The notes below the pieces were generated by a model. The model worked only from the letters and a program-made list of their open reading frames with translations. It searched no databases and was not told the DNA's origin. From assembly GCA_001508005.1 (NCBI GenBank), contig LGEZ01000014.1:1-56649 (forward strand): DNA of 56,649 nt, read 5' to 3'. Numbering within the stretch: the first letter of the stretch is position 1; every line of letters starts with the position of its first letter. The position numbers and the translations under genes were made by a program. The stretch comes from Clostridia bacterium 41_269 (lineage in GTDB: Bacteria; Bacillota; DTU086). Shown here in pieces: positions 53,207-56,649 of this stretch.

Positions 53207-53459
53207 ATTTTGCCTCTGCTGCATTAAGGTTTCCTAAATATAGAACTGAGGAAAAAAAGAATGAGGAAAAAAGGTTCATACGCTTATCGAACTTGAGAAA
53301 CAATAAAGAAGAAATAAAAAAGATCTGGCATGTGTATACGAACTTTTCCCCAGGCTAAAGGAGCGCTCGTGGCAGCTAGCAGGACTTTGTCTGGAGGAGA
53401 GCAGTAGATGCTTGCAGTGGGAAGGGCGCTCGTGTCCTGCCCTAAAGTTCTGGATTATA
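53207..53459. other. Gene-free stretch between pseudogene and CRISPR leader
   Basis: No gene is supported. A nine-base direct repeat GCGCTCGTG occurs at about 53364 and 53428, and GCAGGAC (53380 region) is complementary to GTCCTGC (53434 region), so the stretch could fold. Nothing identifies it. Confidence 0.35.
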
Positions 53460-53652
53460 AAAAATGTCGTCGACCTCCAGTAGTGCAAAAACCCCTGGGG
53501 ATCGACGACATTTTTATGTTAAATACCGTTGACCGTAAAAGGCTTTAGCCCCAAAGCTTTTGAGGAATTTTGAAGATTAAAAATAAAAAGTTGATTGAAA
53601 AAAACGCATGATGTATAATTTTGTCAGACGTTGATTCATGCACCCAAAACGG
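53460..53652 (+). promoter_or_regulatory. CRISPR leader with hairpin and promoter
   Basis: A 14-bp inverted repeat (53460-53473 with 53502-53515, core TGTCGTCGA / TCGACGACA) opens the leader. A promoter TTGATT (53591-53596), 17 bases, TATAAT (53614-53619) would start transcription about 27 bases before the first repeat. The leader is AT-rich and lies on the side where repeats are uniform. Confidence 0.75.
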
Positions 53653-56649
53653 GTTTTCAGCCTACCTACGAGGGATTGAAACTGCTGTACTGGAGAAAGG
53701 AAGAACTATGGTACTACAGTTTTCAGCCTACCTACGAGGGATTGAAACATAGTGAAGGGGACTTAATTGCCATAGGTAAATACCCGTTTTCAGCCTACCT
53801 ACGAGGGATTGAAACAGTGCATTCGGTTTAATCAAGGTGGAAGGAGACAAGTTTTCAGCCTACCTACGAGGGATTGAAACAGGACCTGATGACCCAGTTT
53901 CACGTTGAGAAGAAAGCGTTTTCAGCCTACCTACGAGGGATTGAAACTTCTCGGCATTTTCGCTATCTACCCAGGCGCACATTGTTTTCAGCCTACCTAC
54001 GAGGGATTGAAACGATGTATGGGGATAGTTTAAATGCCATAAGAGGGCTTGTTTTCAGCCTACCTACGAGGGATTGAAACCTGCATAGACTACATTTACT
54101 CTTTTCGTAACCTCGGGTTTTCAGCCTACCTACGAGGGATTGAAACATACCAGCGATGAGAATATGGCAGTAGCCGCCTTTTTGTTTTCAGCCTACCTAC
54201 GAGGGATTGAAACGTGAAGCAGCCGTAGACATGGCAAGGGCAAAGAAAGTTTTCAGCCTACCTACGAGGGATTGAAACCCGTACCCGTGTCACCTATTAC
54301 CACATCCGCAATCGTGTTTTCAGCCTACCTACGAGGGATTGAAACGTGTGTTTGAAAGCAAGCATCAAAAAACGCAGGACCGTTTTCAGCCTACCTACGA
54401 GGGATTGAAACAACCTCCCAAACTGCCGGTTGGTTTCTCCTGCCCAGGTTTTCAGCCTACCTACGAGGGATTGAAACTAGCAAAAAGAGAAAATGAGGAG
54501 GGTGTAAAAACCGTTTTCAGCCTACCTACGAGGGATTGAAACTTAAACGAACCCCCTTTCAGACGCATTTTCTGCTTCGTTTTCAGCCTACCTACGAGGG
54601 ATTGAAACATCTTCCGGCAGGTCAGAACGCCGTTCTGATGATTGAGTTTTCAGCCTACCTACGAGGGATTGAAACTGTTGTTAATGCTCACCCAAATAAC
54701 CTCCTAAAAGGGTTTTCAGCCTACCTACGAGGGATTGAAACCGACTTACCCAGAGCAGTATTAGAAAGCGAAATCCCTCGTTTTCAGCCTACCTATGAGG
54801 AATTGAAACCAAAAGACATATTCTGTAGCAGTGTATATTGCCTCCGTTTTCAGCCTACCTATGAGGAATTGAAACGGTACAGCATAACCGTGCTGTCTTT
54901 TCCGCCGCTCCAGTTTTCAGCCTACCTATGAGGAATTGAAACAGAAGTGGGTGACGATAATAATGACAATTGTTTGCGGTTTTCAGCCTACCTATGAGGA
55001 ATTGAAACAGTATCAACGGATACGGGGTTTCCGCGGGAAATTTAGTTTTCAGCCTACCTATGAGGAATTGAAACTATCCCAAAGCGTCATGCCTTTATTG
55101 CTGTTCCTCAGTTTTCAGCCTACCTATGAGGAATTGAAACCTGGGAGTGCAGTAATACTGCACTCTTTCGGCTTTGGTTTTCAGCCTACCTATGAGGAAT
55201 TGAAACTTCTATAGCACAAGTCAGGGAATGTGAGTTATCTAGTTTTCAGCCTACCTATGAGGAATTGAAACTTCGATTGTTCTAAAATAGCCTTTGTCTA
55301 TATATTCGTTTTCAGCCTACCTATGAGGAATTGAAACGTTGAAGAGGCTTTACAGAGATTAAATCCTAATAGGGTTTTCAGCCTACCTATGAGGAATTGA
55401 AACTTGCCTTGTTTTGAATACCTATAAAATGCTGCATTGTTTTCAGCCTACCTATGAGGAATTGAAACAGGAAGGGGAGGCAATATACACTGCTACAGAA
55501 TATGGTTTTCAGCCTACCTATGAGGAATTGAAACATCATAGCTTCGCCTATTTTTTCAAGGCCTAATACCGTTTTCAGCCTACCTATGAGGAATTGAAAC
55601 ACAGCCAAACCCTCAGCCATTTGCTGACCGATTTTGTTTTCAGCCTACCTATGAGGAATTGAAACACAAAACATTAGGACTTTTATGCGCAGCAAGGCCC
55701 CGTTTTCAGCCTACCTATGAGGAATTGAAACCTGTTAGTACAAACATAGTTAATACGGCAAAAACAGTTTTCAGCCTACCTATGAGGAATTGAAACACTA
55801 GTACTTACATACTAGGGCAAACCACCTGCCCGTTTTCAGCCTACCTATGAGGAATTGAAACATAAAGTTAGTCATTTTGTTTACCTCCTTTAAAGTTCGT
55901 TTTCAGCCTACCTATGGGGAATTGAAACGCATATAAGAATACCAAAAGCGGACAAAATTTACTCGTTTTCAGCCTACCTATGAGGAATTGAAACACGACC
56001 TTGACAAAATCACCGCAGGCTGGCAGAATGGTTTTCAGCCTACCTATGAGGAATTGAAACTTCATAAAATAGGTGACAAAGCCGAAAGAGTGCAGTAGTT
56101 TTCAGCCTACCTATGAGGAATTGAAACCTCCATAGTGACCAGATGTTATATTGCTTAATATTACGTTTTCAGCCTACCCATGAGGAATTGAAACAATATC
56201 TGCTAGCAGAAAATGAGGCATTCAAAAAAGCAGTTTTCAGCCTACCTATGAGGAATTGAAACTTATTCGCCCTGTTATCAAAATAAAAGACTATGCAAGT
56301 TTTCAGCCTACCTATGAGGAATTGAAACTCTCGATAACTTCGGTCAAAAATTTACACTTCCCCGTTTTCAGCCTACCTATGAGGAATTGAAACACGGTGA
56401 AGGCCGCCGGCAAGAACGAAAAGACCACGTTTTCAGCCTACCTATGAGGAATTGAAACTATTCGGCCAATACCTGATAGGTAGTCCCATAAGCCGTTTTC
56501 AGCCTACCTATGAGGAATTGAAACTTTTCTGCGGGTTTGGTATCAACGATTATTTCCTTCGTTTTCAGCCTACCTATGAGGAATTGAAACCTTCCAGCAG
56601 TTTTTCATAAATAGAGAGGACCCTTTCGTTTTCAGCCTACCTATGAGGA
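53653..56649 (+). CRISPR. CRISPR array, 46 repeats, two repeat variants, open at the window end
   Basis: Repeats are 30 bases, start with GTTTTCAGCCTACCTA and end with ATTGAAAC, as in type I-B/III arrays. I counted 45 complete repeats and one cut at 56649, with 45 spacers of 35-38 bases. The first 17 (53653-54741) have C17 and G22; from repeat 18 (54780) on all have T17 and A22. Single-base variants occur at repeat 35 (55899, A19 to G) and repeat 39 (56165, T15 to C). Leader on the left. No cas genes are in the window. Confidence 0.97.

Follow-up and report, generated by a model that had tools for sequence, protein, structure and literature searches.

Overlapping prespacers are known and have been studied (PMC6282206, PMC5059440). 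In the primed adaptation of E. coli, overlapping prespacers compete with each other (PMC6282206), in type I-F priming, spacers are captured from both strands near the targeted site (PMC5059440), and in the type I-B system of Haloferax, self-targeting yields spacers near the target with a strand bias (PMC7521656). Flipped spacers, in which the same sequence is present in the opposite orientation, have also been described (PMC5059440, citing Shmakov 2014). The two pairs of spacers presented here resemble the experimental type I spacer sets (PMC6282206, PMC5059440) in that spacers were drawn from both strands of a single region in one element, but they differ from them in that the overlaps lie inside one natural array.

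The window, i.e., the whole stretch of 56649 nt analysed, is contig C17 of a draft genome (G000; 1.67 Mb in 30 contigs). In the only genome of the same genus that was found (G001), a type I-B operon of the order Cas2-Cas1-Cas4-Cas3-Cas5b-Cas7b-Cas8b-Cas6b was present, with a leader and an array adjoining cas2 and with Cas10/Cmr2 of type III-B further along from the operon. It is common for type I-B arrays to be compatible with type III effectors (PMC8482600). The array of G001 (contig C51) is built of a similar 30-nt repeat, with two base differences from the main form in the window, and its leader is homologous to the window leader and carries the same hairpin. In contrast to the G001 array, which adjoins cas2, no cas operon was seen beside the array in the window genome.

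A type I-B-like array and its leader

The array in the window consisted of 30-nt direct repeats ending in ATTGAAAC and separated by regular spacers of 34–39 nt, as in type I-B arrays. Contig C29 of the same draft genome terminates in the same repeats (34 of them), and its first spacer is the spacer in which the window ends. The array was therefore taken as very probably going on in C29, which gives 77 distinct spacers in total. On that contig, at the far end of the array (L009, 8123–12592), only a lone Cmr3-like gene, a gene for a CARF protein and Csx15 were seen.

Cas1 (PF01867) was not found in the home assembly, which is 95.5% complete, and an assembly gap is possible. The same assembly contained no match to the G001 Cas7b/Csh2 and none to Cas6 (PF10040), the Csh2 and Cas6 queries being weaker tests. 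Because these type I-B cas genes were not found in the home assembly, the locus would be described as a type I-B-like array rather than as a complete I-B system, and because neither Cas1 nor Csh2 was found there, the adaptation machinery considered below is that of the relative G001.

The leader is located on the left of the array, so that the newest spacers are on the left as well; spacer 28 is older than spacer 18 and spacer 37 is older than spacer 23. The variant CTACGAGGGATTG was carried by 17 leader-side repeats, which fits growth at the leader end. The switch of the repeat sequence inside this one array was sharp, with all 17 leader-side repeats (53653–54741) differing from the older ones (54780–56649) at the same two positions.

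Table 1. Coordinates of the array, its leader and selected spacers in the window.
Feature	Position	Strand	Description
CRISPR leader	53455–53652	+	Homologous to the G001 leader between cas2 and the array of the type I-B locus, 74% over 203 nt
Leader hairpin	~53467–53510	+	TGTCGTCGACCTCCAG...CTGGGGATCGACGACA; also present close to the leader end in the L031, L037 and L042 arrays
Repeat array	53653 to window end	+	45 complete repeats, 44 complete spacers and a 45th spacer ahead of a final, truncated repeat
Leader-proximal (newest) block	53653–54741	+	17 repeats GTTTTCAGCCTACCTACGAGGGATTGAAAC
Older block	54780–56649	+	Repeats GTTTTCAGCCTACCTATGAGGAATTGAAAC; Rfam CRISPR-DR2 matches
Spacer 2	53749–53785	+	Encodes SEGDLIAIGKY, a motif found in the N-terminal domain of phage tail-collar fibres
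Spacer 18	54810–54845	+	CAAAAGACATATTCTGTAGCAGTGTATATTGCCTCC; 54817–54845 is the reverse complement of 55476–55504
Spacer 23	55141–55176	+	55156–55176 is the reverse complement of 56077–56097; contains the palindrome GAGTGCAGTAATACTGCACTC (21 nt)
Spacer 28	55469–55504	+	AGGAAGGGGAGGCAATATACACTGCTACAGAATATG; with spacer 18 defines the 43-bp site CAAAAGACATATTCTGTAGCAGTGTATATTGCCTCCCCTTCCT
Spacer 37	56061–56097	+	Overlaps spacer 23 by 21 nt on opposite strands; 52-bp site together

The leader hairpin (TGTCGTCGACCTCCA...TGGAGATCGACGACA) lies roughly 100–150 bases before the first repeat and was conserved in five related arrays (the window, L021, L031, L037 and L042). It could possibly be a terminator or a leader signal. 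The same repeat family was observed in draft genomes labelled Petrimonas, Bacteroidetes and WOR-3 (L028, L032–L035, L038, L040, L041 and L043–L047), for which wide transfer and misbinning are both possible readings. The final spacer base was C in 30 of the 77 spacers (window 53683–56560 and L009; p ~0.003 against 23.5% overall).

Two pairs of spacers overlapping on opposite strands

The first-pass annotation had reported an overlap of 29 nt between spacers 18 and 28 on opposite strands, and both its coordinates and its seven-base offset proved exact on rechecking. The last 29 nt of each spacer are the exact reverse complement of the other, with 7 nt left over at each 5' end. An all-against-all comparison of the spacers confirmed this pair and revealed another one that had been missed, namely spacers 23 and 37, sharing 21 nt; the earlier account was thus correct but incomplete. 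The 29-nt and 21-nt exact matches have different end points. Same-strand overlaps between spacers were 11 nt at most, and in the C29 half no spacer overlapped another by more than 12 nt. The competition between overlapping prespacers known from E. coli may, by analogy, help to explain the absence of same-strand overlaps here.

Of 200 simulated arrays with matching dinucleotide composition, none contained two spacers with 16 nt in common, and reverse-complement pairs with 14 nt in common numbered one at most; chance therefore cannot explain the shared spacer sequence. The exact 29-nt match, set against these simulations, gives good support to the proposal that spacers 18 and 28 were taken from a single site in opposite orientations. 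Two spacers from one site, together with a second such pair, are a real event of a known kind.

In both pairs, the 3' ends of the opposite-strand spacers overlap. In type I-B systems, the PAM is located on the 5' side of the protospacer, so the PAMs and seeds would fall at the two outer ends of each site (43 bp and 52 bp), outside the shared part in both pairs. The 7-nt offset of spacers 18 and 28 is about the length of a seed. Both pairs belong to the 3'-overlap class, for which the chance is 1/16 if four overlap classes are equally likely, which is too little to build on. It is very unlikely that 3'-overlapping guide pairs were kept by selection because one site is hit on both strands with separate PAMs and seeds; if it were so, no single escape mutation would defeat both guides.

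The crRNAs of spacers 18 and 28 could pair with each other, as had been pointed out earlier, and this is physically true. The 29-bp RNA duplex was calculated at -51.5 kcal/mol, in comparison with a median of -11.1 kcal/mol among all spacer pairs. Such a strong duplex is a direct result of the opposite-strand geometry, and there was no sign that the pairing matters or that the duplex has a function.

Search for the invader

Several reading frames are open through the 43-bp site, one of them giving EGEAIYTATEYVF. The search for this site by blastn in phages and plasmids gave no true match, only weak phage matches at chance level, and exact and third-position-degenerate patterns gave no true match in IMG/VR. 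The degenerate pattern used with GTDB genomes found none besides the array itself, and the array was also the only match in its own genome and 60 others when up to three mismatches were allowed. Two near-identical IMG/VR contigs (L048 and L049) share an exact 18-mer with the site and were rejected, only 23 of the 43 bases being matched. Their reading frame IYTATE agrees with the site, which is suggestive at best, one such match being about what is estimated for chance.

For the 52-bp site, the exact 21-mer and one degenerate frame were used in IMG/VR, and relatives and phages were also searched; nothing was found. No match was obtained with the degenerate pattern of spacer 36. With the natural array as the query, the stronger plasmid matches looked like other CRISPR arrays. 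The strand asymmetry of trinucleotides inside the spacers gave no clear PAM signal, and no invader was common to this array and 309 spacers of similar arrays.

The motif encoded by spacer 2 was found unchanged in an IMG/VR contig of a contractile-tailed phage (L023), in a protein matching Pfam Phage_tail_fib, and the gene adjoining this fibre gene resembles those of phage baseplate J proteins. Since the tail-collar fibre motif is common to spacer 2 and the phage contig, phages are plausible targets of this array. Spacer 19, read in reverse, encodes WSGGKDSTVMLY, which resembles the PP-loop of a PAPS-reductase-like protein.

Probable repeated sampling of one site and the alternatives

For random sampling, the number of spacer pairs that should share 21 nt or more, whichever the strand, was calculated as n(n - 1)/2 x 31/L, where n is the number of 36-nt spacers and L is the pool length. 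For a pool of 40 kb, 2.27 overlaps are expected among 77 spacers and 0.73 among the 44 window spacers, with two observed. The probability of two or more overlaps among the 44 window spacers was 0.17 for 40 kb and 0.05 for 80 kb. The maximum-likelihood pool was 45 kb (95% 13–375 kb) for 77 spacers and 15 kb (4–121 kb) for 44. As the random sampling of 40 kb already predicts about 2.3 overlaps for 77 spacers, a special hot spot is not needed, and the hot spot or primed adaptation suggested earlier from spacers 18 and 28 was not established by these counts. Both are possible.

Similar arrays were used as a base rate, and plasmid arrays, mostly with few or dissimilar repeats, were left out of it. 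Among the 309 spacers (304 distinct) of similar-repeat arrays, 5557 within-array pairs contained no partial overlap, only exact duplicates. The difference between none of 5557 pairs and two of 2926 pairs in this array was not significant (p ~0.12, calculated by hand). Because both pairs sit among the 44 newer spacers and no partial overlap was found within the similar arrays, a mild hot spot or the repeated sampling of one region is possible. A comparison between arrays of a single WOR-3 draft genome (L035 with L044) gave one match of about 20 nt on opposite strands, with different flanks.

Taken together, spacers 18 and 28, as well as 23 and 37, probably represent separate type I-B captures that took place at different times, each pair coming from a single site of one invader or of close relatives, with no special hot spot needed. 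Cas1, Cas2 and Cas4 would have captured the spacers of a pair independently, spacer 28 before spacer 18 and spacer 37 before spacer 23, each protospacer having its own PAM and its own seed outside the shared part. Overlaps of this kind would be expected if the source genome is small and a long array draws on it repeatedly.

A less likely explanation, though one to be taken seriously, is primed adaptation. In this case, an escape mutant of the same invader would have kept a partial match to crRNA 28 (and 37), and the effector together with Cas3 would have led to new spacers, among them 18 (and 23), being taken up nearby from both strands. In its favour, the newer spacer lies on the strand opposite to the older one in both pairs, and there are precedents for spacers arising close to the target, namely priming in type I-F (PMC5059440) and self-targeting in the type I-B system of Haloferax (PMC7521656). 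However, random resampling already yields about this many overlaps, and priming should leave several spacers grouped close together, a pattern that would be visible only on the invader sequence. Moreover, the shared 29 nt are identical, so an escape mutation would be confined to the seven outer bases or the PAM of spacer 28, unless it was reversed later.

It is rather improbable that the sequence itself makes these sites acquisition hot spots, for example through a palindrome or a tendency to break that would lead to their repeated capture. The 21-nt palindrome in the 52-bp site would suit such a hot spot, and two overlaps in 44 spacers are somewhat above the number expected for 40 kb, but no third spacer was found at either site and neither spacer 18 nor spacer 28 carries a palindrome of this type. 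Hairpin spacers were also not significantly enriched, with six observed against 3.3 expected and 68 of 500 simulations reaching six.

The insertion of one captured fragment twice in opposite orientations is documented for type I systems (PMC5059440) and would give the same sequence in both directions, but it is hardly credible here: flipping with slipping keeps nearly the whole fragment, whereas the ends differ by 7 nt in one pair and 15–16 nt in the other, which indicates different fragments, and the pair members are 10 and 14 spacers apart. An assembly or binning artefact, although the draft genome is in 30 contigs and the array is broken across two, has a negligible probability, since the exact matches stop at the spacer/repeat borders, their ends differ and the flanking repeats all keep one direction, which argues strongly against an inverted mis-assembly, as a mis-join would bring the repeats along.

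Separate captures from one site thus being the preferred explanation, the array took spacers from the same invader site on two separate occasions and from opposite strands, and it did so twice over. This is otherwise ordinary in kind and does not change the current understanding. The overlaps inside an array work like a capture–recapture count, and two among 77 spacers correspond to a pool of about 45 kb and few distinct invaders, which suggests that much of the array samples a few phage-sized genomes.
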